A stretch of DNA of 64,000 nt from Phyllobacterium sp. YR531 (lineage in GTDB: Bacteria > Pseudomonadota > Alphaproteobacteria > Rhizobiales > Rhizobiaceae), in NCBI RefSeq assembly GCF_000282595.1, contig NZ_AKIZ01000035.1, positions 248,001 to 312,000 on the forward strand, in the 5' to 3' direction. Numbering within the stretch: the stretch's first letter is position 1; the number at the start of each line of letters is the position of its first letter. A program made the translations under genes and the position numbers. The notes under the pieces were generated by a model. The model was not told the DNA's origin. It worked only from the letters and a program-made list of their open reading frames with translations, and did no database searches. Positions 20,078 through 58,198 of this stretch are shown here, in pieces.

Positions 20078-20977
20078 TCAACCAGCCTGACTGATTTCTT
20101 CGCCGGTGCCAAGCTGGCCTGCTTCCCAACCAAGGATCGCCCTTTTGCGGGTAAGACCCCAATGATACCCGGTCAATGCGCCAGATTTCCCAACGGCCCG
20201 ATGGCAGGGTACGACAAAGGAAACCGGATTGGCACCCACTGCCGCACCAACGGCCCGTGATGCTTTGGGCGATCCGATATCGGCGGCGATGTCGGAATAG
20301 GCAACGCATTTACCCATCGGAATCTTGAGCAAAGCTTCCCAGACGCGAAGCTGGAAGTCTGTTCCGATAGTGACAACTTTCAGTGGCTTGTCAGCGCGCC
20401 ATTCCGATGGATTGAACACGCGAGCTGCATAGGGAGCTGTTGCGCCCAAATCTTCCACGTAGGTGGCATTGGGCCAGCGGGAAGACATATCGGCAAGCGC
20501 TTCCCTCTCTTTGCCGGGATCAGCGAATGCCAAACCGGCCAATCCGCGATCTGTCACCATAATCAACGCCTGACCAAATGGTGAAATCAGGAAACCGTAG
20601 CGGATCGTCAGTCCTGCACCACGCGATTTGTAATCTCCCGGCGACATGCCTTCATGAGTCACGAAAAGATCATGCAGGCGTCCCGGGCCGGACAGGCCGG
20701 TTTCATAGGCAGTCTCAAGCAGTGGCATGCCCTCATCGAGCAGTCGCCGGGCATGGTCTATTGTCACTGCCTGCAAAAACCCCTTCGGAGACAAGCCGGC
20801 CCAGCGCGTGAAAAGTTTCTGCAAGCCGGTAGGCGAAAGACCCGTATCGCGAGCCAATGTCTCAAGCGAAGGCTGGTCACGATAATCCTTGCTGATTCGC
20901 TCAATGATATGACTGACAATGGCGTAATCATCGCCACTCGGCGTAATGTCTTTCTGAAGTATGGCATGTGGTTTCAT
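20078..20977 (-). CDS. AraC-domain O6-alkylguanine-DNA alkyltransferase (Ada-like)
   Basis: 299 residues. The first 105 form an AraC-type helix-turn-helix (SLETLARDTGLSPTGLQKLF, ending HEGMSPGDYKSRG). Residues from about 190 form the methyltransferase domain with the Tyr-containing wing (GKCVAYSDIAADIGSPKASR) and the acceptor Cys in NPVSFVVPCHRAVG. It repairs O6-methylguanine by suicide transfer. The N-terminal zinc phosphotriester domain of E. coli Ada is absent, so activation by phosphotriester methylation is not expected. It stands alone. Confidence 0.9.
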   Translation of the reverse strand: MKPHAILQKDITPSGDDYAIVSHIIERISKDYRDQPSLETLARDTGLSPTGLQKLFTRWAGLSPKGFLQAVTIDHARRLLDEGMPLLETAYETGLSGPGRLHDLFVTHEGMSPGDYKSRGAGLTIRYGFLISPFGQALIMVTDRGLAGLAFADPGKEREALADMSSRWPNATYVEDLGATAPYAARVFNPSEWRADKPLKVVTIGTDFQLRVWEALLKIPMGKCVAYSDIAADIGSPKASRAVGAAVGANPVSFVVPCHRAVGKSGALTGYHWGLTRKRAILGWEAGQLGTGEEISQAG

Positions 20978-38128: not shown

Positions 38129-39067
38129 CTAAGGCAGCGTTGCTATGCGCGATGTCAAAAGCTCGAAGAAGCCATCGGAATCCACATCACGAATGTAGAA
38201 CGCGTTCTTTGGGCGATCGGTAACACCCCACCAGTCAACCACTGTCATTCCAAGCGTCAACTCGTTGGAAGCATCAACCTCAACGTTGCACTCCCGGCCC
38301 GTATAAAGCTCCGGCTTAAGCAGATAGGCAATAACGTTCGGGTCGTGCAAAGGTCCGCCATCGCTGCCATATTTCTCTTCATCGAAGCGCTCGAAAAACT
38401 CCAGCAGCGCAACTGATGCATCCCCGGATTTGGTCCCCATAGCGCGGAAGCGCTCAATACGTTTGGCGGTGGTTAGAGCCTGATGCGTAACGTCGAGCGG
38501 TAGAATTACTGTTGGAATACCTGATTGCAGCACAATTTGCGCTGCCTGTGGATCAACATAGATGTTGAACTCGGCGGTTGGCGTAATATTGCCGCCCTCA
38601 AAGAAGCCACCACCCATCAAGACGATCTCTTTGATACGCGGTGCAAGGTCCGGCGCTCGCAGCAGCACAAGGGCGATGTTGGTCAGGGGGCCAAGCACGC
38701 AAAGCGTAACTGTTCCCGGCGCTTCGTTACGCAAAGTATCAATGATGAAATCAACTGCATGCTGAGGTTGTAGAGGCATGGTGGGTTCAGGCAGATCAGG
38801 ACCATCAAGGCCGGTCTTGCCGTGCACATGCTCTGCGGTGATCAAAGGGCGCATCAACGGCCGGTCAGCACCGGCAAATACACGGGTCTCCGGACGACCG
38901 GCCAGTTCAGAAATTTTACGGGCATTCACCTCGGTCAACGCAAGCGGCACATTCCCGGCTACAGCCGTAATGCCGAGTATTTCCAGTTCCGGACTGGCGA
39001 ATGCCAAAAGTATGGCCAAGGCATCGTCTTGCCCGGGATCGGTATCGATTATGATCTTACGTGCCAT
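38129..39067 (-). CDS. Inosine/uridine-preferring nucleoside hydrolase
   Basis: 312 residues. The N-terminal DTDPGQDDALAILLAFASPE supplies the Ca2+-binding Asp cluster. LCVLGPLTNIAL, VLMGGGFFEGGNITPTAEFN and HDPN-like LHDPNVIAYLL complete the IUNH signature. It releases bases from ribonucleosides. It has no signal peptide and is therefore cytoplasmic. A link to the pyrimidine catabolic locus 7 kb away is plausible for uridine use but not shown. Confidence 0.91.
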   Translation of the reverse strand: MARKIIIDTDPGQDDALAILLAFASPELEILGITAVAGNVPLALTEVNARKISELAGRPETRVFAGADRPLMRPLITAEHVHGKTGLDGPDLPEPTMPLQPQHAVDFIIDTLRNEAPGTVTLCVLGPLTNIALVLLRAPDLAPRIKEIVLMGGGFFEGGNITPTAEFNIYVDPQAAQIVLQSGIPTVILPLDVTHQALTTAKRIERFRAMGTKSGDASVALLEFFERFDEEKYGSDGGPLHDPNVIAYLLKPELYTGRECNVEVDASNELTLGMTVVDWWGVTDRPKNAFYIRDVDSDGFFELLTSRIATLP

Positions 39068-39998: not shown

Positions 39999-41306
39999 TC
40001 AGACTTTGACAGTCTGCTCCACGCGGTCTTCTGCGCCGAAAATTTCCAGATAGCGTTTGATTTCCGAAGGTTCGCCCGTGGCCTTCTTCGGATTGTCCGA
40101 AAGCTTCACTGCCGGACGCCCATTCGCATAACTCACCTTGCAGACAAGCGAAATCGCATTCAACTGATCGTTGAAGCGTGGGGCGCAGTCCTCGAAGTCA
40201 TTGGTCAGGTTGGTGCCCCAACCGAAGCTCATGCGGACCTTGCCGTCAAAATGCCTGTAGGTTTCTTCAATCGTATCGACATCAAGACCGTCAGAAAACA
40301 CCAGCAATTTTTCGCGGGGGTCTTTCCCCTTTGATTTCCACCAGGCCAGAATTTTCTCACCGCCTTCAATGGGCGGTGCGCTGTCCGGACGAAAGCCGGT
40401 CCAGTCTGCCACCCAGTCCGGCGCGTCTCGCAGGAACGCCGCTGTTCCGAACGCGTCCGGCAACACGATGAGAAGGTTGCCGCCATAGTAGCGGTTCCAA
40501 TCTTGAAGCACTTGGTATGGTGATGCCAGCAACTCCTCGCGGTTCTTGCTCAAAGCCGCCAAGACCATGGGCAGCTCATGCGCATTGGTGCCGAGAGCTT
40601 CCAGATCATTGTCCATCGCCATCAACACATTGCTTGTGCCGGTAAAGGACGCCCCGATCCCTTCTTTCAAGGCCTCAACGCACCAGCGCTGCCACAGGAA
40701 TGAATGGCGGCGGCGTGTGCCGAAGTCGGAAATCCGGATATCAGGCAGTGACTGGAGTCGCTCGACTTTCGTCCACATCTTTGCTTTGGCGCGGGCATAA
40801 AGCACATCCAGCTCAAACCGGCCCATTTTTTTCATCGCGGCGCGGGAGCGAAGTTCATTGATGATGGTCAACGCCGGAATTTCCCACATCGTGGTGTACA
40901 TCCATGGGCCATGGAAATTCAGTTCATACTGGCCGTCACGTTTGACCAGCTCATATTCCGGCAATTGAAAGTTCGCCAGCCAGCTAAGGAAATCCGGCTC
41001 AAATATCTGGCGTTTGCCGTAAAACGTATTACCGCCAAGCCAGATCATTTCCTTTTTGGAGAAGCGAATCTCGCGAGCGTGATCAAGCTGTTCGCGCAAT
41101 TCCTGCTCGTCAATCTCATCACCCAGCCGTACTTTGGTGGTGCGGTTGATGAGTGTGAAAGTTGCATCGACCTTGGGATAAACACCCCATATCATCTGTA
41201 GCATGAGGAGTTTGTAGAAGTCCGTATCGAGAAGACTCCGGACGATGGGGTCCAGTTTCCATGTATGATTGAAAACACGCCGGGCTATATCGGTCTTGGT
41301 CGCCAT
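39999..41306 (-). CDS. pncB: Nicotinate phosphoribosyltransferase
   Basis: 435 residues. It opens with [20 protein letters not shown], continues with the substrate loop around [18 protein letters not shown] and GTSNVLMA, and includes [14 protein letters not shown] and [11 protein letters not shown] for phosphoribosyl binding. It makes nicotinate mononucleotide from nicotinate in the NAD salvage pathway. It is a single gene, convergent with DUF1150. An inverted repeat lies 28 bp upstream of its start. Confidence 0.95.
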
Positions 41307-46045: not shown

Positions 46046-46078
46046 TTCCTCGTACTGCTATTGGAAGAATTATCATGC

Positions 46079-46190
46079 GTGGTTCGACAAGCTCACCATG
46101 AGGAATGTGGTCGCTTTCATTAGTCTACAGCTCACGAAGTCCGGTTCCATAAAGTGTATGATCTTCCTCATGGTGAGCTTGTCGAACCAC
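46079..46190. repeat. Palindromic repeat element, copy 1
   Basis: A perfect 27-bp inverted repeat: left arm 46079-46105 beginning GTGGTTCGACAAGCTCACC, right arm 46164-46190, with 58 bp between. Copy 2 at 49201-49324 has nearly the same arms but an unrelated centre. The GTTCGACAAGCTCACC core is a common alphaproteobacterial intergenic repeat. No transposase is encoded inside. Confidence 0.82.
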
Positions 46191-46242
46191 ACATAATTGA
46201 AATGTAACGAGATGAACGCTTCTCCCATAAGAACATGATTAT

Positions 46243-46277
46243 TGACCATTTGATAAAAAATTTGACCTTTTGTAAAA
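46243..46277. promoter_or_regulatory. Two RutR-like boxes upstream of preT
   Basis: TTGACCATTTGATAAA (46243-46258) matches the RutR consensus TTGACCA-NN-TGGTCAA at 12 of 14 fixed positions. TTGACCTTTTGTAAAA (46262-46277) is a weaker second copy, 19 bp on. Both lie 106-140 bp before preT. Control by the RutR-type gene at 49360 is inferred. Confidence 0.6.
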
Positions 46278-46382
46278 ATATGCCATTCTTTCCATAACGG
46301 AGCCGGACATACCGGCTCATCCTGCAAATGGCGGTGATCCACGGGAACCGGAGACTGCCACAGATATGGGAGATGCCATTTC

Positions 46383-47840
46383 ATGGGATCGATGGATTCA
46401 GGAATCCGTGACGTCAGGGCCGGGCGGCTCGCCAACGGCAATTACAGCGAAGTGTTTTCCGATCTGCATCCACCGCTTTCGCGGCATGAGGCTTTCGTTG
46501 AATCTGACCGGTGTTACTTTTGTTACGATGCCCCGTGCATGAATGCCTGCCCGACGGGCATCGATATTCCGCTTTTCATACGCGAGATCGCAGCAGACAA
46601 TCCGACCGGCTCAGCCAAGACCATCCTTGCCGAAAATATCCTTGGCGGCATGTGCGCCCGGGTGTGTCCGACAGAAACCCTTTGCGAGCAGGCGTGTGTG
46701 CGTGAAGCAGCCGAAGGCAAGCCGGTCAAGATCGGTCTCTTGCAGCGCTACGCCACTGATCATCTTATGGAAAACGGCCAGCATCCGTTCAAACGCGCTG
46801 CACCTACGGGTAAATCGGTTGCCGTTGTCGGTGCCGGTCCGGCGGGGCTTTCCGCCGCCCATCGTCTGGCTATGCATGGGCATGATGTGACGATTTTCGA
46901 GGCGCGCCCCAAAGCGGGTGGTCTTAATGAATACGGTATCGCCGCTTATAAAAGCGTTGATGATTTTGCACAGAAGGAACTTGAGTTCGTACTGGAAATA
47001 GGCGGCATCACCATCCAGAACGACAAGGCGCTTGGACGCGATATCAGCCTTGATGCCTTGCGCGCCGGTTTCGATGCGGTTTTCCTTGGGTTGGGCCTGC
47101 CCGGTGTCAATGAGTTGGGGCTTGATGGCGAGGACGCTGCGGGATGTATCGACGCGGTGGATTACATCTCGGTTCTGCGTCAGAGCAACGATCTTTCGGA
47201 AATCGCAGTTGGCCGCGATGTCGTCGTCATTGGTGGCGGTATGACGGCAGTCGACGTTGCAGTTCAGACAAAACTGCTCGGCGCGGAGAATGTCATCATC
47301 GCCTATCGTCGCGGACCGGAAAGCATGAACGCCAGTGAGTTCGAACAGGAACTAGCGTTGAAGAATGGCGTGATCATACGCCACTGGCTGCAGCCGCGCG
47401 CATTGACCCGCAACGATCGCGGCGAAGTTTGCGGCATCACCCTCGACTATACCGTGCTGAACGATGGCAGGCTGGAGACTTCCGGCGAGAGCGTCACATT
47501 GGCGAGCGATCAGGTTTTCAAGGCTATCGGCCAGATGCCGGCGGAAAAGATTCTTGCTGATGCAGGTATGGCACTATCGCGTGGCCGTATCAGTGTTGAC
47601 GAGGAGCGCCGCACGTCGATCTCGGGAATCTGGGCAGGCGGCGATTGTATTGCAGGTGGTCAGGATTTGACCGTGGCAGGCGTTCAGGATGGCAAGCTTG
47701 CCGCCGAATCCATCCATCGGATGCTCTCGATGCAGCCGGAAAAGGTGAGTGGTTTTGCTGAGGCAGTGATTGCCAGCAATGCCGAGCCTGCTGCAGCGCC
47801 TTCACAAAATCCTGCCAATCCAGGCCACATTAGCGGCTGA
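46383..47840 (+). CDS. preT: Dihydropyrimidine dehydrogenase subunit PreT
   Basis: 485 residues. The N-terminal region has Fe-S cysteines (CYFCYDAPCMNACPTGIDIP and CARVCPTETLCEQACV). FAD and NADH Rossmann folds follow: SVAVVGAGPAGLSAAHRLAM and DVVVIGGGMTAVDVAVQTKL, with GIWAGGDCIAGGQDLTVAGV near the end. It passes electrons from NAD(P)H to PreA for reduction of uracil and thymine. It lies 11 bp before preA. ATG 46383 has GGGAGAT about 15 nt upstream; ATG 46392 is an alternative. Confidence 0.93.
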   Translation: MGSMDSGIRDVRAGRLANGNYSEVFSDLHPPLSRHEAFVESDRCYFCYDAPCMNACPTGIDIPLFIREIAADNPTGSAKTILAENILGGMCARVCPTETLCEQACVREAAEGKPVKIGLLQRYATDHLMENGQHPFKRAAPTGKSVAVVGAGPAGLSAAHRLAMHGHDVTIFEARPKAGGLNEYGIAAYKSVDDFAQKELEFVLEIGGITIQNDKALGRDISLDALRAGFDAVFLGLGLPGVNELGLDGEDAAGCIDAVDYISVLRQSNDLSEIAVGRDVVVIGGGMTAVDVAVQTKLLGAENVIIAYRRGPESMNASEFEQELALKNGVIIRHWLQPRALTRNDRGEVCGITLDYTVLNDGRLETSGESVTLASDQVFKAIGQMPAEKILADAGMALSRGRISVDEERRTSISGIWAGGDCIAGGQDLTVAGVQDGKLAAESIHRMLSMQPEKVSGFAEAVIASNAEPAAAPSQNPANPGHISG

Positions 47841-47851
47841 AGGAAACCATC

Positions 47852-49162
47852 ATGGCTGATCTTTCTTCGAACTTCCTTGGTATCAAATCTCCAAATCCAT
47901 TCTGGCTTGCATCAGCGCCACCAACCGATAAGGCCTATAATGTCGAGCGGGCCTTTGCGGCGGGCTGGGGCGGTGTCGTCTGGAAAACTCTTGGCGAGGA
48001 GGGGCCTCCCGTTGTCAATGTGAATGGTCCGCGCTACGGCGCAATTCATGGCCCCGACCGCCGCCTGCTGGGCTTGAACAATATTGAGCTGATCACGGAT
48101 CGTCCTCTTGAAGTCAATCTGCGTGAGATGACTGAGGTGAAGAAGAAGTGGCCAGACCGTGCGTTGATCGCATCAATCATGGTACCTTGTGAGGAAGAAG
48201 CATGGAAAGCCATTTTGCCACGCGTCGAGGAAACGGGATGTGATGGCATCGAGCTGAACTTCGGCTGCCCGCACGGCATGTCGGAACGTGGCATGGGTGC
48301 TGCGGTTGGCCAGGTGCCAGAATATATCGAAATGGTGGTGCGTTGGTGCAAGCAATATACGCGCATGCCCGTCATCACCAAGCTGACGCCGAACATTACG
48401 GATGTGCGCAAGCCCGCTCGCGCTGCCAAGTCTGGTGGCACTGACGCGGTTTCATTGATCAACACGATCAATTCCATTGTTTCGGTTGATCTCGATACAT
48501 TTGCGCCCAATCCTTCCATTGATGGACGGGGCTCGCATGGGGGCTATTGCGGTCCGGCAGTCAAGCCGATTGCATTGAACATGGTCGCGGAAATTGCCCG
48601 CGATGCGGAAACGCGCGGCCTTCCAATCTCGGGCATCGGCGGTATAACCACATGGCGCGATGCGGCAGAATTCATTGCGCTCGGCTGCGGCAATGTTCAG
48701 GTCTGTACTGCGGCGATGACCTATGGGTTCAAAGTAGTCCAGGAAATGATTTCCGGCCTGTCTGACTGGATGGACTCTCGCGGTTTCAGTTCCATCGAAG
48801 ATTTTCGTGGCATGGCCGTTCCCAATGTTACTGACTGGCAGTATCTCAACCTCAACTACATCACCAAAGCGCAAATCGATCAGGATCTCTGCATTAAATG
48901 CGGCCGCTGCCACATTGCGTGCGAAGACACATCGCATCAGGCGATCACGTCAATGGTCGATGGGGTCCGGCATTTCGAGGTGATTGATGAGGAATGCGTG
49001 GGCTGCAACCTATGCGTTAATGTTTGCCCGGTCGAAAATTGCATTGATATGGTGCCGATGATCTCGGGTGTTGACCCACGCACCAAAACACCAGTTCGAC
49101 CCGATTATGCCAACTGGACAACCCATCCGAACAATCCAATGGCTAAGGTCGCGGCGGAGTAA
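47852..49162 (+). CDS. preA: NAD-dependent dihydropyrimidine dehydrogenase subunit PreA
   Basis: 436 residues. An FMN barrel of the dihydroorotate dehydrogenase type (NPFWLASAPPTDKAYNVERA, NFGCPHGMSERGMGAAVGQV with the catalytic Cys region, ISGIGGITTW) is followed by two [4Fe-4S] motifs: CIKCGRCHIACED and CVGCNLCVNVCP. It reduces uracil/thymine to the dihydro forms, the first step of the reductive pathway completed by the downstream genes. It forms an operon with preT. Confidence 0.95.
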   Translation: MADLSSNFLGIKSPNPFWLASAPPTDKAYNVERAFAAGWGGVVWKTLGEEGPPVVNVNGPRYGAIHGPDRRLLGLNNIELITDRPLEVNLREMTEVKKKWPDRALIASIMVPCEEEAWKAILPRVEETGCDGIELNFGCPHGMSERGMGAAVGQVPEYIEMVVRWCKQYTRMPVITKLTPNITDVRKPARAAKSGGTDAVSLINTINSIVSVDLDTFAPNPSIDGRGSHGGYCGPAVKPIALNMVAEIARDAETRGLPISGIGGITTWRDAAEFIALGCGNVQVCTAAMTYGFKVVQEMISGLSDWMDSRGFSSIEDFRGMAVPNVTDWQYLNLNYITKAQIDQDLCIKCGRCHIACEDTSHQAITSMVDGVRHFEVIDEECVGCNLCVNVCPVENCIDMVPMISGVDPRTKTPVRPDYANWTTHPNNPMAKVAAE

Positions 49163-49200
49163 AGGAGTTAACTCAACCTCCGGCTTGCAATGCCGTTTTT

Positions 49201-49324
49201 GCGTGGTTCGACGGGGCTCACCATGAGGAACGTATTAATTTGCACAGGAGTCTAGTTCTGTGGCAGTGCAGGTTGGCTTTGCAGCCCTACAACTTTCCTC
49301 ATGGTGAGTCCCGTCGAACCACGC
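49201..49324. repeat. Palindromic repeat element, copy 2
   Basis: A 30-bp inverted repeat with one G-T wobble: left arm 49201-49230 beginning GCGTGGTTCGACGGGGC, right arm 49295-49324. Compared with copy 1 the arm has GGGG in place of AAG, compensated on the other side. It lies 38 bp after preA, between convergent preA and rutR, and could also end both transcripts. Confidence 0.8.
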
Positions 49325-49359
49325 GCAGAGCCGGTGCAAAGGCTAAGTAACCACCATAT

Positions 49360-50013
49360 TCAATCGCGCGGTCGTATCCCGTTGAGAATGATACTCAGCA
49401 CAGCCTGTGCCGTTTGCTCGCGGAAGCCGGGACGACCAACCTGGCTGCCCATGATGGCGCGGACCTGAACATCGAAATCCGCATAGTGCTGGGTGGTTGC
49501 CCAGATCATGAAAATCAGATGGTAGGGATCAACGGGCGCAAGCTTTCCTTCACCTACCCAGCGGCGGATGACGACGGCTTTCTCATCCACCAGTGGCTTC
49601 AGGTGCTTGGCAAGAAAGTCACTGATCGCCGGTGCGCCATGCAGCACCTCATTGGCGAATAATCGCGAAGCTTCCGGGTGACTTTCGGACATTTTGATCT
49701 TGAGCGTGATGTACTTGCGAAGCTGTTCGATCGGATCTCCCTCGGGATCAATGTCCGCAAGGGGCGCAAGCCATTCGGTCAAGGTTTCTTCCAGCAGCGT
49801 CACATAGATGTTCTGCTTGCGGGGAAAATAATAAAGCAGGTTCGGTTTAGACATGCCGGCTTTCTCGGCGATCTGGTCGATTGTCGTGCCACGAAAGCCA
49901 TAGGTTGAGAAAACATCAAGCGCCGCATCAAGGATCAGGCGGCGGTTGATTTCCTGAATACGGGTCGTTTTTTCCGGTCCGCCACTGGTCTTCTGCTTTG
50001 CAGCTTTCGCCAT
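49360..50013 (-). CDS. rutR: TetR family regulator RutR
   Basis: 217 residues. The helix-turn-helix reads ILDAALDVFSTYGFRGTTID then KAGMSKPNLLYYFPRKQNIY. The C-terminal domain (SRLFANEVLHGAPAISDFL, FMIWATTQHYADFDVQV) matches RutR, whose ligand pocket binds uracil or thymine and releases DNA. It lies divergent from the aminotransferase gene and convergent with preA. A near-perfect RutR box at 50127 supports the identity and suggests it controls both halves of the pyrimidine locus. Confidence 0.92.
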   Translation of the reverse strand: MAKAAKQKTSGGPEKTTRIQEINRRLILDAALDVFSTYGFRGTTIDQIAEKAGMSKPNLLYYFPRKQNIYVTLLEETLTEWLAPLADIDPEGDPIEQLRKYITLKIKMSESHPEASRLFANEVLHGAPAISDFLAKHLKPLVDEKAVVIRRWVGEGKLAPVDPYHLIFMIWATTQHYADFDVQVRAIMGSQVGRPGFREQTAQAVLSIILNGIRPRD

Positions 50014-50092
50014 CTACCGATTACTCCACCCACCCGCGACAAAATGGCAATTCCGCTATCACTTGCAACGGGTTGAAATGCCTATAAAGCGC

Positions 50093-50142
50093 TTGACCAC
50101 CTAACTATGCTCTTCTAGCCTGCATTTTGACCAACTAGTCAA
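50093..50142. promoter_or_regulatory. RutR box upstream of the aminotransferase operon
   Basis: TTGACCAACTAGTCAA (50127-50142) matches TTGACCA-NN-TGGTCAA at 13 of 14 fixed bases. A half-site TTGACCAC lies at 50093-50100. The full box lies 93 bp before the aminotransferase start and 113 bp from rutR. Confidence 0.75.
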
Positions 50143-50235: not shown

Positions 50236-51561
50236 ATGTCTAAAGCGGCACTGGGGACAAACAATCTCGACGCGTTCTGGATGCCTTTCACGGCAAACAA
50301 GCAGTTCAAGCAAAATCCCCGCCTCCTCGTCAGTGCTAAAGACATGCACTACAAGTCTCATGATGGTCGCGAAATTCTTGATGGCACTGCTGGCCTCTGG
50401 TGCTGCAATGCCGGTCATGGCCGCCCGAAGATTGTAGAAGCAGTTCAAAAGCAGGTTGCAGAGCTGGATTATGCGCCGGCATTCCAGATGGGTCACCCCA
50501 AGGCATTTGAGCTGGCTGCCCGTCTTGCCGCCATGCTGCCATCGCCGCTTGACCATGTATTCTTTACCAATTCCGGCTCTGAATCGGTCGATACCGCGCT
50601 GAAGATTGCGCTCGCCTATCATCGTGCCAAGGGCAATGGCACCAAGGTCAAGTTGATCGGCCGTGAGCGCGGTTATCATGGTGTCGGTTTTGGCGGCATT
50701 TCCGTTGGCGGCATTTCCGGCAACCGCAAGACTTTCGGCAATGCGCTCGGCGGAATTGACCATATCCGCCATACCCACGATCTGGCACGTAATGCCTATA
50801 CGCGCGGCGAACCGGAATATGGCGTCGAGTTTGCCGATGATCTGGAAAGAGTCATTGCTCTGCATGACGCATCAAATATTGCGGCAGTCATCGTAGAACC
50901 CGTGGCAGGGTCGACCGGCGTTCTCATTCCGCCAAAGGGATATCTCAAGCGCCTGCGCGAGATTTGCACCAAGAATGATATTCTCCTGATCTTTGATGAG
51001 GTCATCACCGGGTTTGGCCGCCTTGGAACACCCTTTGCGATTGACTATTTCGGCGTCGTGCCTGATCTCGTCACCACTGCAAAAGGCATCACCAGCGGGG
51101 TTATTCCAATGGGTGCCGTGTTTGCCTCGTCGGACATCTATCAGGCGTTCATGAATGGTCCTGAAAATCTGATCGAGCTTTTCCACGGCTACACCTATTC
51201 AGGTCATCCCGTCGCTTGTGCCGCCGCTCTGGCAACGCTTGATACTTACGAAGAAGAAGGGCTACTGACTCGCGCATCTGAGCTTTCCGATTATTGGGCG
51301 GATGCGCTGCATGGGCTCAAAGGATTGCCGAATGTCATCGACATTCGAAATCTCGGACTGATCGGTGCCATTGAGCTTCAGCCTATAGAAGGTGCGCCGA
51401 CCAAGCGTGCGTTTCAGGCTTTCCTGAATGCCTATGAGAAGGGTGTGCTGATCCGCACGACTGGCGATATCATTGCGCTGTCGCCGCCCTTGACCATCAG
51501 CAAAGGCCAGATCGAACACCTGTTCGATACACTGGCTGACGTGTTGAAGAATCTCGCATAG
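50236..51561 (+). CDS. Omega-amino-acid (beta-alanine) aminotransferase, class III
   Basis: 441 residues, fold-type I class III PLP enzyme. It has FTNSGSESVDTALKIALAYH for cofactor phosphate, GRERGYHGVGFGGISVGGI, IFDEVITGFGRLGTPFAID, and the Schiff-base Lys in VTTAKGITSGVIPMGAV. The position in the pyrimidine operon suggests it transaminates beta-alanine or beta-aminoisobutyrate, the last step of the pathway. ATG 50236 follows AGGAGG. First gene of an operon of seven, preceded by a RutR box. Confidence 0.9.
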   Translation: MSKAALGTNNLDAFWMPFTANKQFKQNPRLLVSAKDMHYKSHDGREILDGTAGLWCCNAGHGRPKIVEAVQKQVAELDYAPAFQMGHPKAFELAARLAAMLPSPLDHVFFTNSGSESVDTALKIALAYHRAKGNGTKVKLIGRERGYHGVGFGGISVGGISGNRKTFGNALGGIDHIRHTHDLARNAYTRGEPEYGVEFADDLERVIALHDASNIAAVIVEPVAGSTGVLIPPKGYLKRLREICTKNDILLIFDEVITGFGRLGTPFAIDYFGVVPDLVTTAKGITSGVIPMGAVFASSDIYQAFMNGPENLIELFHGYTYSGHPVACAAALATLDTYEEEGLLTRASELSDYWADALHGLKGLPNVIDIRNLGLIGAIELQPIEGAPTKRAFQAFLNAYEKGVLIRTTGDIIALSPPLTISKGQIEHLFDTLADVLKNLA

Positions 51562-51572
51562 GGAACAGGCAA

Positions 51573-52820
51573 ATGTCGCTGACAGGAAATCTTCGGATCA
51601 ATGGCGACCGGCTCTGGGACAGCCTCATGGAAATGGCCAAGATCGGGCCGGGTTTGCGCGGTGGTAACAACCGCCAGACCCTGACCGATGAGGATGGCGA
51701 AGGCCGCCATTTGTTTCAGTCCTGGTGCGAGAACGCCGGGCTGACCATGGGTGTTGATACCATGGGTAATATGTTTTTCACCCGCGAAGGCACAGATCCC
51801 GACGCTTTGCCCGTCTATGTAGGGAGCCATCTGGATACACAGCCAACAGGCGGTAAATATGATGGTGTGCTGGGCGTTCTTGGCGGGTTGGAACTGATCC
51901 GCACACTCAATGATCTTAATATCAAGACCAAGCATCCGATTGTCGTCGTCAACTGGACGAATGAGGAAGGCACACGCTTCGCACCGGCCATGCTGGCTTC
52001 AGGGGTTTTTGCTGGCATTCACGATGAGCAATGGGCCTATGATCGCGAAGATGCCAAGGGCAAAAAGTTCGGTGACGAGCTTGAGCGGATAGGGTGGAAA
52101 GGCGATGAGAAAGTCGGTGCCCGCAAGATACATGCGCTGTTTGAACTGCATATCGAACAGGGACCCATCCTGGAAGCGGAAGGCAAGGACATCGGCGTTG
52201 TCACGCATGGGCAGGGACTTTGGTGGCTGCAGATCACGTTGACGGGCAAGGAGAGCCACACAGGCTCGACACCCATGCCCATGCGCAAGAATGCCGGTCT
52301 CGGCATGGCGCGTATTACCGAGCTGGTTCACAATGTCGCCATGGCACATCAACCCAGTGCGGTCGGTGCAATCGGCCATGTTGATGTCTATCCGAACTCG
52401 CGCAATGTCATCCCCGGTAAAGTGGTGTTTACGGTCGATATCCGCTCGCCGGATCTGGCTACGCTTACAGCCATGAAGACTGAAATTGAAGCGAAAGCAC
52501 CGGAAATCGCCAAGGAACTTGGCCTGAGCATTGAAATCGAAGAGGCGGGACATTTCGATCCGGTCACATTTGACAAAGGCTGCGTGACAGCAGTGCGCAA
52601 TGCGGCTGAGCGTCTGGGCTACAGTCACCGCAATATTGTTTCCGGTGCGGGTCATGATGCCTGCTGGATCAACCGTGTTGCTCCGACTGCGATGGTGATG
52701 TGTCCTTGCGTTGATGGCCTCAGCCACAATGAGGATGAGGAAATCTCGAAAGAATGGGCTGCTGCCGGAACTGACGTCCTGCTGCATGCGGTTCTGGAGA
52801 CGGCGGAGATTCAAGCCTGA
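51573..52820 (+). CDS. N-carbamoyl-beta-alanine amidohydrolase (Zn-dependent M20 family)
   Basis: 415 residues. The di-zinc site is spread over VGSHLDTQPTGGKYDGVLG, NWTNEEGTRFAPAML and LHIEQGPILEAEG, with a late SGAGHDACWINR. The family includes HyuC and allantoate amidohydrolase. With dihydropyrimidinase next door it is best read as the beta-ureidopropionase step (PydC-like), giving beta-alanine, CO2 and ammonia. It lies 11 bp after the aminotransferase and 56 bp before hydA. Confidence 0.91.
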   Translation: MSLTGNLRINGDRLWDSLMEMAKIGPGLRGGNNRQTLTDEDGEGRHLFQSWCENAGLTMGVDTMGNMFFTREGTDPDALPVYVGSHLDTQPTGGKYDGVLGVLGGLELIRTLNDLNIKTKHPIVVVNWTNEEGTRFAPAMLASGVFAGIHDEQWAYDREDAKGKKFGDELERIGWKGDEKVGARKIHALFELHIEQGPILEAEGKDIGVVTHGQGLWWLQITLTGKESHTGSTPMPMRKNAGLGMARITELVHNVAMAHQPSAVGAIGHVDVYPNSRNVIPGKVVFTVDIRSPDLATLTAMKTEIEAKAPEIAKELGLSIEIEEAGHFDPVTFDKGCVTAVRNAAERLGYSHRNIVSGAGHDACWINRVAPTAMVMCPCVDGLSHNEDEEISKEWAAAGTDVLLHAVLETAEIQA

Positions 52821-52876: not shown

Positions 52877-54331
52877 ATGGCTACGAAACTGATCAAAGGT
52901 GGCACGATTATTGCCGCCGACCGCACCTACAAAGCGGACGTGCTGATCGACGGTGACAAGATCGCTGCAATCGGCAATGATCTTGCAGGCGATGAGGTCA
53001 TTGATGCAACGGGCTGCTTTCTCATGCCCGGCGGTATTGATCCGCACACGCATCTTGAAATGCCTTTCATGGGCACCCATTCCAGCGATGATTTCGACAC
53101 TGGTACAGCCGCTGCTTTAGCGGGCGGGACCACCATGGTCGTCGATTTTGTTCTTCCGGGCGAAGATGGGCTGCTCGCAGCATTGCAGGACTGGTTCCAA
53201 AAAGCGGGCAAGGCGCGCACTGATTATTCTTTCCACATGGCGATAACCGGCTGGAACAAGCAGGTTTTTGATGAAATGCCGAAGGTTGTCGAGCGCGGTA
53301 TCAATACGTTCAAACATTTCATGGCCTATAAGGGCGCGCTGATGGTGGATGACGACGAAATGTTCGCATCCTTCCTGCGTTGCGCCGAGATTGGCGCCAT
53401 GCCGCTGGTTCATGCGGAAAATGGCGATGTCGTTGCCCATCTTCAGCAAAAATTACTGGCTGAAGGCAATACCGGGCCTGAAGCCCATGGCTATTCGCGT
53501 CCGCCGGAAATTGAAGGCGAGGCGGCCAATCGCGCCATCATGATCGCGGATCAGGCAGGCGTGCCGCTTTATATCGTGCATGTCTCCTGTGAACAGTCAC
53601 ACGAAGCCATCCGTCGTGCGCGCGCCAAGGGCATGCGTGTTTATGGCGAACCACTGATCCAGCATCTTGTTCTCGATGAAAGCGAATACAAGAACGAGGA
53701 TTGGGACTATGCCGCCCGCCGCGTCATGTCTCCGCCCTTCCGTGACAAGATCAACCAGAATGGATTGTGGGCCGGTCTGGCATCGGGAAGCCTGCAAGTT
53801 GTCGCAACGGACCATTGTGCTTTCACCACTGAGCAAAAGCGTTTTGGCGTCGGTGATTTTACCAAGATACCGAACGGCACAGGTGGGCTTGAAGATCGTA
53901 TGCCCGTGCTATGGACGAAGGGCGTACGGACAGGACGCCTGACCCCGAACGAATTTGTAGCCGCGACATCCACCAACATTGCGCAGATTCTCAATATATA
54001 TCCGCGCAAGGGTGCCATATTGCCGGGTTCCGACGCGGATATTGTCATCTGGGACCCGAACGCAACCAAGGTCATTTCTGCAAAGTCGCAAAAATCCGCC
54101 ATCGACTATAATGTCTTTGAAGGCATTGAGGTCACAGGCCTGCCACGCATCACGCTTTCGCGCGGAGAGATTGCCTATAAGGATGGCGAGGTAATCGCGC
54201 CGACAGGCAGCGGGCGTTTTGTAGAACGTGAGGCCAATCCCTCTGCAAGCCGCGCACTTTCCACTTGGAAGGAATTGACCGCACCGCGTAGAGTGGAGCG
54301 TGATCCAAAGAATATTCCGGCAGGCGTCTGA
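52877..54331 (+). CDS. hydA: Dihydropyrimidinase
   Basis: 484 residues of the cyclic amidohydrolase family. Metal ligands are seen in GIDPHTHLEMPF (His-x-His), FKHFMAYKGALM (carboxylated Lys), PLVHAENGD, YIVHVSCEQ and VATDHCAFTTEQK (Asp). It opens the dihydrouracil ring to N-carbamoyl-beta-alanine. AAAGGGGAACG precedes the start. Its stop codon shares one base with the start of the ABC ATPase gene. Confidence 0.95.
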   Translation: MATKLIKGGTIIAADRTYKADVLIDGDKIAAIGNDLAGDEVIDATGCFLMPGGIDPHTHLEMPFMGTHSSDDFDTGTAAALAGGTTMVVDFVLPGEDGLLAALQDWFQKAGKARTDYSFHMAITGWNKQVFDEMPKVVERGINTFKHFMAYKGALMVDDDEMFASFLRCAEIGAMPLVHAENGDVVAHLQQKLLAEGNTGPEAHGYSRPPEIEGEAANRAIMIADQAGVPLYIVHVSCEQSHEAIRRARAKGMRVYGEPLIQHLVLDESEYKNEDWDYAARRVMSPPFRDKINQNGLWAGLASGSLQVVATDHCAFTTEQKRFGVGDFTKIPNGTGGLEDRMPVLWTKGVRTGRLTPNEFVAATSTNIAQILNIYPRKGAILPGSDADIVIWDPNATKVISAKSQKSAIDYNVFEGIEVTGLPRITLSRGEIAYKDGEVIAPTGSGRFVEREANPSASRALSTWKELTAPRRVERDPKNIPAGV

Positions 54332-55170
54332 TGACAGTCGTCGCGCTTCGACCCAAGGCAAAGATAATGGCTGATGCGGCGCCAAAAAATGTAATTGACG
54401 TCAAGGATTTGTCGCTGGTCTTCCAAACCAATGACGGGCCGGTCAACGCCCTTTCCAACATCAACCTTGCAGTCAATAGCGGCGAGTTCGTTTCCTTCAT
54501 CGGCCCGTCCGGTTGTGGAAAGACCACCCTGTTGCGGGTGATTGCCGATCTGGAGCAACCGACATCGGGCAGCATATCAGTCAACGGCATGACGCCCTCG
54601 CAAGCGCGGGAAAAGCGTGCCTATGGCTATGTGTTTCAGGCGGCCGCGCTTTACCCATGGCGTACCATTGGCGGCAATATTTCCCTGCCGCTGGAGGTGA
54701 TGGGAATTCCCAAGGAAGAGCGCAAGGCGCGCATCGCCAAAAACCTTGAACTGGTCAACCTTGCCGGTTTCGACAAGAAGTTTCCGTGGCAATTGTCTGG
54801 TGGCATGCAGCAGCGCGCATCCATCGCCCGCGCATTATCCTTCGATCCGGATATGCTTTTGATGGACGAGCCATTCGGTGCTCTTGATGAGATCGTCCGC
54901 GATCATCTCAACGAGCAATTGTTGAAGCTCTGGGCCAAGACGCAGAAGACCGTGATCTTTGTCACACACTCGATCCCGGAGGCGGTGTTTCTCTCAACCA
55001 AAATTGTGGTCATGAGTCCGCGCCCCGGCCGCATTCACGAAATCATTGATTGCAATCTGGGTTCAGAACGCACGCTCGATATTCGCGAGACACCGGAGTT
55101 TCTTGAAATTGCCCATCGGGTCCGCGAAGGTCTGCGTCATGGTCATTCCTATGACGAGGCGCATTTATGA
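54331..55170 (+). CDS. ABC transporter ATP-binding protein
   Basis: 279 residues. Walker A is GPSGCGKTTLLRV, the Q-loop follows in YVFQAAALYPW, the signature is LSGGMQQRASIARAL and Walker B is MLLMDEPFGALDEI. It belongs to the NitT/TauT-type (SsuB/ThiZ-like) group. It powers the importer formed with the two permeases and the binding protein downstream. The ATG at 54331 overlaps the hydA stop; an ATG at 54367 is an alternative start nearer the domain. Confidence 0.93.
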   Translation: MTVVALRPKAKIMADAAPKNVIDVKDLSLVFQTNDGPVNALSNINLAVNSGEFVSFIGPSGCGKTTLLRVIADLEQPTSGSISVNGMTPSQAREKRAYGYVFQAAALYPWRTIGGNISLPLEVMGIPKEERKARIAKNLELVNLAGFDKKFPWQLSGGMQQRASIARALSFDPDMLLMDEPFGALDEIVRDHLNEQLLKLWAKTQKTVIFVTHSIPEAVFLSTKIVVMSPRPGRIHEIIDCNLGSERTLDIRETPEFLEIAHRVREGLRHGHSYDEAHL

Positions 55171-56066
55171 TGGAGGAGCGTAAAGGCTTTTCAGCCATGC
55201 TCCACGACAGGGTAATCCCGGTCGGAACAATCCTTTTGGTCATTCTCGTGCTCTGGTATGGGTTTGCAATATTCCTCAATGCACCTTTTGAGCGTGACCA
55301 GGCGGCACGTGCCAACACGACCATTTCCACCAGTCAGCTGATTGCCAATACGATGGTGCAAGAGAGGCCGGTTTTGCCCGCTCCGCATCAAGTCGCCGCA
55401 GAAATCCGCAAGACAGTTTTTGATATTTCCCCGACATCCAAACGCAGCCTCATCTATCATGGCGGCGTAACCTTATCGTCTACGCTCCTCGGCTTCGCAT
55501 TCGGAACGCTGCTCGGTATTCTTCTGGCGATTGCCATTGTGCATTCGCGCACGCTCGACAAGAGTCTTATGCCGTGGATCATCACGTCGCAAACAGTGCC
55601 GATACTTGCCATTGCCCCGATGATTATCGTGGTGCTCAATGCGGTTAATATTACAGGGCTTTTGCCCAAGGCGATGATCTCGACCTATTTGTCATTTTTT
55701 CCCGTCGCCGTCGGCATGGTCAAAGGCCTGCGCTCGCCGGAAATCATGCATCTTGATCTGATGCGAACCTATAACGCTTCAAAGGCGCAAGTTTTCTGGA
55801 AATTACGCTGGCCCGCCTCCATGCCTTATCTCTTCACGTCGATGAAAATAGCCGTCGCGATCAGCCTTGTCGGCGCTATTGTTGGTGAGCTGCCAACTGG
55901 CGCAGTGGCGGGTATTGGCGCGCGCCTTCTGGCTGGTTCCTATTACGGACAAACTGTCCAGATCTGGGCGGCTTTGATCGCTGCCGCATTGATGGCCGCT
56001 ATCCTTGTCAGCCTGATCGGCATCATTTCGACGCTGGTTAACCGGCGTATGGGAGTGCGATCATGA
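55167..56066 (+). CDS. ABC transporter permease
   Basis: 299 residues with six or so membrane helices. The ATPase-contact EAA loop reads DLMRTYNASKAQVFWKLRWP. A large periplasmic loop follows the first helix. It belongs to the BPD_transp_1 family of NitT/TauT importers. The start overlaps the ATPase gene (ATGA) and the end overlaps the next permease gene (ATGA). Likely forms a heterodimer with that permease for pyrimidine uptake. Confidence 0.92.
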   Translation: MMEERKGFSAMLHDRVIPVGTILLVILVLWYGFAIFLNAPFERDQAARANTTISTSQLIANTMVQERPVLPAPHQVAAEIRKTVFDISPTSKRSLIYHGGVTLSSTLLGFAFGTLLGILLAIAIVHSRTLDKSLMPWIITSQTVPILAIAPMIIVVLNAVNITGLLPKAMISTYLSFFPVAVGMVKGLRSPEIMHLDLMRTYNASKAQVFWKLRWPASMPYLFTSMKIAVAISLVGAIVGELPTGAVAGIGARLLAGSYYGQTVQIWAALIAAALMAAILVSLIGIISTLVNRRMGVRS

Positions 56067-57169
56067 GGATTTCGCGTTCACCTTTGGCCATAGGCGCCTT
56101 TGTCCTCTCGGCAGTCTCACTGGTATTTTCGACAGGCGCTGACGTGCAAAGCACATTGTCCTATAGTGCTCCAATAGTCCTTTTTGCCGCCGCTGCTGTC
56201 GCGCTGTTTGCTTCAGCGTCCACTTCTTCCACGATTGCCCTGCTCGTTCTCGTTCACATCACGGCTTACAGCCTCATATCACTGCTTGGTTCGATGGGCC
56301 CGGCTGGTGCTGCGCTCGGTTACTGGTGCATGGTTATCGCCGCGTGGCTTCTGGCCTGGCTGAGCGTACAAAGGCTTGCCGGTTGGCGCCTTGCGTCTCC
56401 CGATGCGCAACGCCTGATAAATCTGGCATTGCCCGTCCTGTTCGGCGCGTGGCTGCTCATCCTTTGGGAAGTGATCGTGCGCGGTTTTGGCGTTCCGGCG
56501 ATCCTGCTGCCGCCACCGTCCATGATTGCCTCACGTATAGCGGCCTCGGTGCCGACGCTCTGGGCGGATTTTCAGCAGACCTATCTGAAGGCAGCAATTG
56601 CCGGCTATGTCATGGGCTGCGGTTCTGGTTTTCTTGCTGCGATCATTGTCGATCGTGTGCCCTTCCTGCGTAAAGGCCTATTGCCCATCGGCAATCTCGT
56701 CGCAGCTTTGCCTGTCGTCGGCATTGCTCCTATCATGGTCATGTGGTTCGGCTCCTACTGGCAGTCAAAGGCCGCTGTCGTTGTCATCATGACGTTCTTT
56801 CCCATGCTGGTGAATACTGTTGCCGGGCTTGCCGCTTCCGGAGCGATGGAGCGTGATCTGATGCGCACCTATGGCTCTAGCTATGGCCAGACATTGCTGA
56901 AACTCCGATTGCCTGCCGCGATGCCGTTTATTTTCAACGCATTGAAGATAAACTCGACGCTGGCGCTGATTGGCGCGATTGTTGCCGAGTTTTTTGGCTC
57001 ACCGATTGTCGGCATGGGCTTTCGCATATCGGCGGAGGTTGGCCGCATGAATGTCGATATGGTGTGGGCCGAGATATTCGTTGCCGCTCTTGCCGGTTCG
57101 CTTTCCTACGGGCTGATTACGCTTGTCGAAAGGGCCGTCACTTTCTGGCACCCTTCTTACAGGACTTGA
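56063..57169 (+). CDS. ABC transporter permease with N-terminal membrane extension
   Basis: 368 residues. The C-terminal 255 residues form a standard permease domain with the EAA loop DLMRTYGSSYGQTLLKLRLP. The first 115 residues add three or four extra hydrophobic helices (SPLAIGAFVLSAVSLVFSTG, VLFAAAAVALFASA, ALLVLVHITAYSLISLLG), which the partner permease lacks. It overlaps that gene by 4 bp. The extension may be structural; its role is unknown. Confidence 0.91.
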   Translation: MRISRSPLAIGAFVLSAVSLVFSTGADVQSTLSYSAPIVLFAAAAVALFASASTSSTIALLVLVHITAYSLISLLGSMGPAGAALGYWCMVIAAWLLAWLSVQRLAGWRLASPDAQRLINLALPVLFGAWLLILWEVIVRGFGVPAILLPPPSMIASRIAASVPTLWADFQQTYLKAAIAGYVMGCGSGFLAAIIVDRVPFLRKGLLPIGNLVAALPVVGIAPIMVMWFGSYWQSKAAVVVIMTFFPMLVNTVAGLAASGAMERDLMRTYGSSYGQTLLKLRLPAAMPFIFNALKINSTLALIGAIVAEFFGSPIVGMGFRISAEVGRMNVDMVWAEIFVAALAGSLSYGLITLVERAVTFWHPSYRT

Positions 57170-57208
57170 AAAACAACTTTAAAAACAAGAACAGAGGAGA
57201 ACTAAAAC

Positions 57209-58198
57209 GTGAAAAAAACCATTGCACTCTCGTTGGGGCTGGCCATCAGCACGCTCATGGCCGGCTCAGCGCTGGCGGCTGACAAGCTTACCCTCCAGCT
57301 CAAATGGGTCACACAGGGGCAGTTCGCCGGCTATTACGTTGCCAAAGACAAAGGCTTCTATGAAGAAGCAAACCTCGATGTAGAGATCAAACCGGGTGGG
57401 CCGGATGTAGCCCCTCCACAGGTCATCGCCGGCGGCGGGGCCGACGTGGTGGTTGACTGGATGCCGTCTGCGCTTGCAACGCGCGAAAAGGGCCTGCCTC
57501 TCGTCAATATTGCGCAGCCTTTCAAACGCTCCGGCATGATGCTGACCTGCCGCAAGGAAACCGGTATTACAAAGCCCGAAGATTTCAAGGGCAAGACACT
57601 CGGCGTATGGTTTGGCGGCAATGAATATCCATTCCTGTCATGGATGAACCATCTCGGTCTCAAGACCGATGGAGGGCCGGAAGGCGTTACAGTTCTCAAG
57701 CAGGGCTTCAATGTTGATCCATTGATCCAGAAACAGGCCGACTGCATTTCCACCATGACCTATAATGAATATTGGCAGGTCATTGATGCAGGCATTCCGG
57801 AAGATCAGCTCGTGACCTTCAAATATGAGGACGAGAAGGTAGCAACGCTCGAAGACGGCCTTTATGTCCTGCAGAAGAGCCTCGACGATCCGGCAATGGT
57901 TGAAAAGTTGGCACGTTTCGTCAAGGCCTCGATGAAGGGCTGGGAATATGCCCGCGCCAATCCTGATGAAGCCGCGACCATTGTCCTCGACAATGATGCG
58001 AGCGGCGCTCAGACCGAAAAGCATCAGAAGCGCATGGTTGCTGAAATCAACAAGCTGACCGAAGGTTCAGATGGTGTGCTTGATACAGCTGCTGCCGACC
58101 GCACAGTTGAAACCTTGCTCGGTGGTGGTTCGGACCCGGTAATCACCAAGAAGCCGGAAGGCGCTTGGACGACTAAGGTTACCGACGCAGCGAAGTAA
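57209..58198 (+). CDS. ABC transporter substrate-binding protein (NMT1/THI5-like)
   Basis: 329 residues. A Sec signal (LGLAISTLMAGSALAAD) exports it to the periplasm. The mature part starts KLTLQLKWVTQGQFAGYYVA, the NMT1/THI5-like pattern found in binders of pyrimidine-type ligands such as HMP precursors. The locus suggests uracil, thymine or a nucleoside as ligand. GTG 57209 follows AGAGGAGA. A 38-bp gap separates it from the permease gene. It is the last gene of the operon. Confidence 0.92.
   Translation: MKKTIALSLGLAISTLMAGSALAADKLTLQLKWVTQGQFAGYYVAKDKGFYEEANLDVEIKPGGPDVAPPQVIAGGGADVVVDWMPSALATREKGLPLVNIAQPFKRSGMMLTCRKETGITKPEDFKGKTLGVWFGGNEYPFLSWMNHLGLKTDGGPEGVTVLKQGFNVDPLIQKQADCISTMTYNEYWQVIDAGIPEDQLVTFKYEDEKVATLEDGLYVLQKSLDDPAMVEKLARFVKASMKGWEYARANPDEAATIVLDNDASGAQTEKHQKRMVAEINKLTEGSDGVLDTAAADRTVETLLGGGSDPVITKKPEGAWTTKVTDAAK

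Follow-up and report, generated by a model that had tools for sequence, protein, structure and literature searches.

A 64 kb stretch of the genome of Phyllobacterium sp. YR531 (contig NZ_AKIZ01000035.1, positions 248,001 to 312,000; hereafter the window) carries a gene for a RutR-type regulator, rutR, within a locus for the reductive pathway of uracil and thymine, raising the question of what this regulator controls there. The genes are arranged as preT-preA on the forward strand, rutR on the reverse strand, and then aptA-pydC-pydB followed by the genes of an ATP-binding cassette (ABC) importer, again on the forward strand. Based on sequence comparisons, we consider it highly probable that RutR acts locally as a repressor dedicated to the reductive pathway, controlling aptA-pydC-pydB-ABC, preTA and its own gene, and that uracil relieves this repression. 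The locus thereby offers two operators on which uracil control of this pathway can be tested in Alphaproteobacteria.

Two predicted RutR operators in the window

As a query we used TTGACCANNTGGTCAA, which we take to be the consensus of the Escherichia coli RutR operator and which a de novo motif search in other genera matches. When as many as 3 mismatches are allowed, this consensus fits 9 places within the window, where 2.56 would be expected. The best of them, at 50127-50142, is the 13-of-14 match that the original prediction had placed before the aminotransferase operon; it lies between the divergent rutR and aptA genes, 113 bp ahead of the rutR ATG and 93 bp ahead of that of aptA. A second predicted operator, at 46242-46257, lies 125 bp ahead of the preT ATG; the span first claimed for the pair, 46243-50142, starts one base late, since the preT box begins at 46242.

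Across the whole genome (4,997,302 bases), the consensus had no perfect match and only two places with one mismatch, the rutR/aptA operator and a site inside an open reading frame (ORF) which, judged from its translation rather than a family search, we take to be hisF. A matrix trained on other genera only, with a maximum of 34.1 bits, ranked the preT operator (26.9 bits) and the rutR/aptA operator (25.6 bits) as the top two sites of the window, followed by sites of 18.7 and 15.8 bits, while 5 Mb of first-order random sequence contained none as high as either operator. By the same matrix, the first 13 two-mismatch places listed for the genome scored 5.0-17.2 bits, and additional weak targets may exist among the others. 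Two candidates for a wider regulon were set aside: the one-mismatch site in the hisF-like ORF (18.8 bits), and a 15.8-bit site of the window, at 20568-20587, which lies inside a 299-codon ORF.

Conservation within Phyllobacterium

We compared the window with 19 further loci, assigned to the genus by their record names, giving 20 in all. The rutR/aptA box was found in 20 of the 20, with one central base varying and the rest invariant, and the preT box in all 14 loci with an adjacent preT, where a single A/G position varies. In six genus genomes, preTA is split from the remaining pyd locus, either by 38-89 kb or by its location on a separate contig. The preT box was retained before the relocated preT in each of these six, at distances from the rutR box of 45.1, 89.0, 37.8, 74.5 and 66.7 kb, or on another contig. 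These relocated copies constitute natural evidence for control in trans.

A strict pattern, TTGACYRNNTGRTMAA, drawn up after the sites had been seen and so as to fit them, was then scanned over 19 genus genomes (one, G002, being left out). This gave 46 matches, of which 38 were at the two operators, present together in 19/19 genomes, and 8 were elsewhere; the reversed pattern gave 4, and the stray matches were not taken as a wider regulon.

The same palindrome in other genera

To look beyond the genus, we used 80 loci from other genera of the order, hand-chosen, mostly from the higher scores, among 136 other genomes with a RutR match. Sites within 2 mismatches of the E. coli consensus were present in 45/80 rutR upstreams and 37/50 preT upstreams, and in none of ten first-order reshuffles of each. 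A palindromic expectation-maximisation search over these 130 upstreams yielded TTGACCAATTGGTCAA, with a log-likelihood of 948.8 (30 starts); three runs on first-order reshuffled sequences, of 8 starts each, reached 121.8, 107.3 and 97.4. When no symmetry was imposed, the same palindrome emerged from the rutR upstreams and from the preT upstreams.

By the resulting matrix, the preT box is present in all 50 usable preT upstreams, on which the matrix was itself trained, and the rutR-upstream box reaches 12 bits in 55 of the 80 loci. At this threshold, a matrix built from rutR upstreams found 49/50 preT upstreams (letter-shuffled, 0/50), and one built from preT upstreams found 49/80 rutR upstreams (letter-shuffled, 0/80), a cross-test that is partly blind, as the training sites were picked with the joint matrix. 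At 14 bits, 64 named loci with at most 82% RutR identity (two still named Phyllobacterium, and some from genomes shared with the training set) had the rutR box in 54/64 and the preT box in 33/33; 9 of the 10 rutR-box misses, seven of them in Kiloniella, have a second RutR copy. Phylum-wide reductive-linked loci outside the training set gave 15/18 and 15/15, respectively. The E. coli rutR-rutA operator is itself the top site of its 12 kb region by this reductive-locus matrix, at 17.0 bits. In Kiloniella, the preT operators of six loci read TTTATCAAATGATAAA, a palindrome of TGATAAA, the right half-site of the window's preT box.

These data bear on the suggestion that regulation is limited to rutR and the aptA operon, with preTA expressed separately and its box a relic. 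Two positions of the preT box do deviate from the consensus in E. coli, and the original prediction had called the box degenerate. It is nevertheless invariant, save for the one A/G position, in 20/20 genus copies, six of them distant, and the preT-specific consensus from other genera, ATTTGACCAatTGaTcAAAA, shows the window's box to be typical of the usual preT form rather than degenerate. We therefore regard a relic as most improbable, and control of both halves of the locus as the better reading.

The regulator and its uracil pocket

The window RutR has a TetR_N domain (51 bits) and a YcdC-like C-terminal domain, PF08362 (176.5 bits), each above its cut-off, and is 98% identical to a protein from a 'Rhizobiales bacterium' record and 82-94% identical to those from Phyllobacterium-named records. 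It passes the cut-off of the NCBIfam RutR model NF011584 (235.2 against 230). E. coli RutR contacts uracil through W77, Y97, W167, Q171 and Q179, according to a figure legend in PMC10891134. All five are kept in the window protein, as W81, Y101, W171, Q175 and Q183, and in 157 reductive-linked RutRs, the window's included, W77, W167, Q171 and Q179 are each present in 157/157 and Y97 in 156/157. Given this conservation of the contact residues, uracil is the likely effector of the window RutR. A second RutR-like gene lies near the first in 22 loci, all 22 encoding the five contacts.

Many TetR regulators bind palindromes, and the operators might serve another TetR-family protein, with the linked RutR-type gene acting elsewhere, a possibility to which the protein's failure to reach the strict RutR equivalog model lends some colour. 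Yet each of the 20 genus genomes encodes one RutR relative only (E <= 1e-40), the operator lies upstream of the rutR gene itself in the 55 loci counted above, and the matrix also recognizes the rut operator of E. coli. Taken together, these make another regulator very unlikely, and RutR the probable binding protein.

Promoter elements beside the operators

A second 'box' before preT, which the original prediction had also described as a degenerate operator, scores 18.7 bits, a value reached 4 times in 5 Mb of first-order random sequence. Across the genus its left half is invariant and its right half variable, so it was set aside as a full operator. Together with the downstream TGnCATTCT, the hexamer at 46262-46267 is more likely the -35 element and extended -10 of a putative preT promoter, in which case the preT operator begins 20 bp upstream of the proposed -35. 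In other genera, a second site of at least 10 bits at 19-20 bp is found in 4/50 preT upstreams. A candidate third operator at 50093-50108, TTGACCACCTAACTAT, was rejected at -8 bits by the matrix; its TTGACC (50093-50098) is invariant in the genus, and the letters that follow do not fit the matrix.

It could be argued from this that all of these sites belong to core promoters, as TTGAC -35 boxes kept for RNA polymerase, with a likeness to RutR sites only through the TTGAC within the operator. For the second preT 'box' and for 50093-50098 this is probably right, as in both TTGACC is invariant while the downstream letters vary or misfit the matrix. As an account of the two claimed operators it is quite improbable, since both of their half-sites are conserved across the genus and the full palindrome recurs in other genera, even without imposed symmetry.

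A model for control of the locus

The sequence comparisons show the genes, the two conserved operators, the operators at relocated preT and the conserved uracil contacts, and from these we infer binding, repression, uracil as inducer, the operon structure and the promoter positions. In this model, a RutR dimer on 50127-50142 would shut off the aptA-pydC-pydB-ABC operon and, by autoregulation, the divergent promoter of rutR itself, while a second dimer on 46242-46257 would block preTA. Uracil, or thymine, in the conserved pocket would release RutR from DNA, and this release would activate the whole route at once, from import through reduction, ring opening and decarbamoylation to transamination.

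Several points weigh against this. RutR could activate rather than repress, and position alone does not decide between the two. Promoter scans miss the proposed promoters, a consensus scan flagging other hexamers instead. The protein falls below the cut-off of the RutR equivalog model TIGR03613 (257.2 against 368) and is therefore filed here as a RutR-type (RutR/PydR-like) regulator and not as a Rut-system RutR. Finally, no box upstream of rutR reaches 12 bits in 25 of the 80 order loci: 4 of these are linked to RutA, 7 encode a second RutR copy and 5 are without PreA and dihydropyrimidinase nearby, leaving 9 exceptions that are reductive-linked and have no second copy.

Organization of the locus

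Family models confirmed the gene content, including the placement of a RutR-type gene inside a reductive locus (Table 1). The reductive pyrimidine (Pyd) gene set is present together, as PreTA, dihydropyrimidinase and ureidopropionase, with PreT recognized by its domains and the ureidopropionase by family and context. For preT, no equivalog lay above cut-off among the best 25 NCBIfam models listed, and the assignment is by domains alone; the pydC/amaB product is also above cut-off for NF006769, a model named allantoate amidohydrolase.

Table 1 Features of the reductive pyrimidine locus, in window coordinates.
Feature	Position	Strand	Description	Support
preT operator (predicted), TTGACCATTTGATAAA	46242..46257		before preT	12/14 match to TTGACCANNTGGTCAA, one of three such in the window; 26.9 bits
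second preT 'box', TTGACCTTTTGTAAAA	46262..46277	+	more likely a -35 hexamer (46262-46267), possibly a weak second half-site	10/14 match; 18.7 bits
proposed preT extended -10 (TGnCATTCT)	46284..46289	+	16 nt past TTGACC	block conserved in genus
preT	46383..47840	+	NAD(P)H/Fe-S partner subunit of dihydropyrimidine dehydrogenase	PF14691, PF07992
preA	47852..49162	+	dihydropyrimidine dehydrogenase subunit	NF006183, 745.7 bits (cut-off 335)
rutR	49360..50013	-	TetR-family regulator	identical to E. coli RutR at 107/211 aligned residues
rutR/aptA operator (predicted), TTGACCAACTAGTCAA	50127..50142		between divergent rutR and aptA	13/14 match to TTGACCANNTGGTCAA, best in the window; 25.6 bits
aptA	50236..51561	+	omega-aminotransferase, beta-alanine/pyruvate type by context	NF052567, 764.9 bits (cut-off 500)
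pydC/amaB	51573..52820	+	hydantoinase/carbamoylase family (M20), beta-ureidopropionase by context	TIGR01879, 406.2 bits (cut-off 204)
pydB	52877..54331	+	dihydropyrimidinase	TIGR02033, 599.7 bits (cut-off 393.25)
ABC importer	54331..58198	+	ATPase 54331-55170; permeases 55167-56066 and 56063-57169; NMT1/THI5-like binding protein 57209-58198	packed against pydB

From aptA to the binding-protein gene, the intergenic gaps are 11, 56 and 39 bases and the genes otherwise overlap, so this run is likely a single operon. The importer had no match above cut-off among the NCBIfam models listed, and is likely a pyrimidine importer. Importers with an NMT1/THI5-like binding protein were also found beside pyd genes elsewhere in the order. 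Upstream of the locus lie genes that we take, from their translations, to encode a nucleoside hydrolase (38129-39067) and a nicotinate phosphoribosyltransferase (39999-41306).

Palindromic elements of ~125 bases flank preTA at 46072-46197 and 49201-49324, with arms of 34 and 33 nt that are 94% complementary and 58 nt between them. A query with the first element returned 89 matching pieces genome-wide (both strands and single arms counted), and the elements therefore appear to belong to a scattered family resembling repetitive extragenic palindromes (REP) or miniature inverted-repeat transposable elements (MITE). They may bear on the mobility of preTA.

Linkage of RutR to the reductive and Rut pathways

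The original prediction had noted the absence of rutABCDEFG from the window. For RutA this holds across the whole genome, where the best score in a family search was 134.3 bits and the cut-off 498.3; no family search covered RutB-G. Among 297 genomes of the order, 137 encode RutR relatives (E <= 1e-40) and 16 encode RutA above cut-off. Within the 80 order loci, PreA or dihydropyrimidinase lies near RutR in 70, RutA in 4 and neither in 6, with PreA in none of the 4 RutA loci. In the sampled order it is thus RutR beside rutA that is the minority, while a reductive locus is a common setting for RutR rather than an oddity. In a phylum-wide sample queried with E. coli RutR, 114/398 genomes matched; 40 loci fetched from 38 of these, mostly those with higher scores, comprised 18 reductive-linked, 13 RutA-linked, 9 linked to neither and 0 linked to both.

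A phylogenetic tree of RutR was built from 109 rows, left from 212 after those more than 80% alike had been dropped. The 13 RutA-linked RutRs, including that of E. coli, grouped in a single clade (support 100/96) of 16 rows, 3 of which are linked to neither pathway. Its sister group contained 8 reductive-linked and 3 unlinked rows (99/84), and the pair was supported at 95/86. This suggests that the rut link of RutR is derived. Against a firm polarity stand the midpoint root, which falls on the branch to tandem second copies, the weak coherence of the remaining 73 rows (80/24), and a sample that is Rhizobiales-rich and omits weaker phylum matches, many of them from outside the class. Nine representatives of the second RutR-like copies form their own clade (100/100).

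When RutA upstreams were scored with the reductive-locus matrix, 6/17 reached 12 bits, with best sites of 6.5-27.2 bits in 16/17. Boxes before RutA often have GGACC in at least one half where reductive-locus boxes have TGACC. The operator seems to have shifted along with the pathway, the RutA-linked boxes being a related but shifted form.

Beta-alanine and coenzyme A

No match to panD was found in the window genome, nor in 15 of 19 genus genomes (the window genome counted among them); the window genome has panC, and a search of it for the PF00282 decarboxylase gave no match. In Rhizobium etli CFN42, an organism without panD, the beta-alanine for pantothenate comes from the beta-alanine synthase of the uracil pathway, according to the parts of PMC7142369 available to us. 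If this route holds here, RutR would, in the absence of panD, gate a precursor of coenzyme A (CoA), and the regulon may also feed CoA synthesis; other sources of beta-alanine, such as AptA run backwards, are possible. A table in PMC7142369 gives Ochrobactrum anthropi neither PYD3 nor PYD2. We found PydC and PydB relatives beside rutR in 16/16 Ochrobactrum- and Brucella-named loci, O. anthropi not being named among them.

A broader proposal would be that in panD-less Rhizobiales RutR, through PydC (beta-alanine synthase), sets the beta-alanine available for pantothenate and CoA, a uracil sensor thereby gating an essential cofactor, and that this reductive role is older than the rut role in E. 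coli. We offer this tentatively, as it is rather doubtful as a whole. It raises the question of how panD-less bacteria supply CoA while the repressor is on.

Comparison with known systems

The comparison of boxes in orthologous loci that the original prediction had called for bears out its central proposal: RutR control of both locus halves is supported by the conserved operators and uracil contacts. A literature search by titles, with most subscription papers and supplements outside it, returned none on RutR at this locus in Phyllobacterium.

E. coli RutR has the domains of the window protein, its five uracil contacts and a box adjoining rutR, and one matrix describes the operators of both. 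It controls the oxygenase (Rut) pathway, however, whereas in the window genome, which has no RutA above cut-off, the box would serve reductive genes. A precedent is the RutR-like regulator PydR of Pseudomonas putida (Hidese et al. 2012, J Biochem, cited in PMC7332683). Judged by the title of that paper, it represses the gene for dihydropyrimidine dehydrogenase in the reductive pathway; the likeness is in kind, and PydR comes from a different class of bacteria. For 68 genomes from 13 proteobacterial groups, RegPrecise predicts that RutR regulons serve pyrimidine catabolism (row 273, 743, 10.9), with taxon-specific motif changes (PMC5343134, seen in part), a resemblance to the window regulon that we draw from these totals and not from member genes or groups. 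As far as sequence tests go, the arrangement is real, conserved and functional, and, with a RutR-like repressor on record in P. putida and RutR regulons predicted in 13 proteobacterial groups, ordinary in kind.

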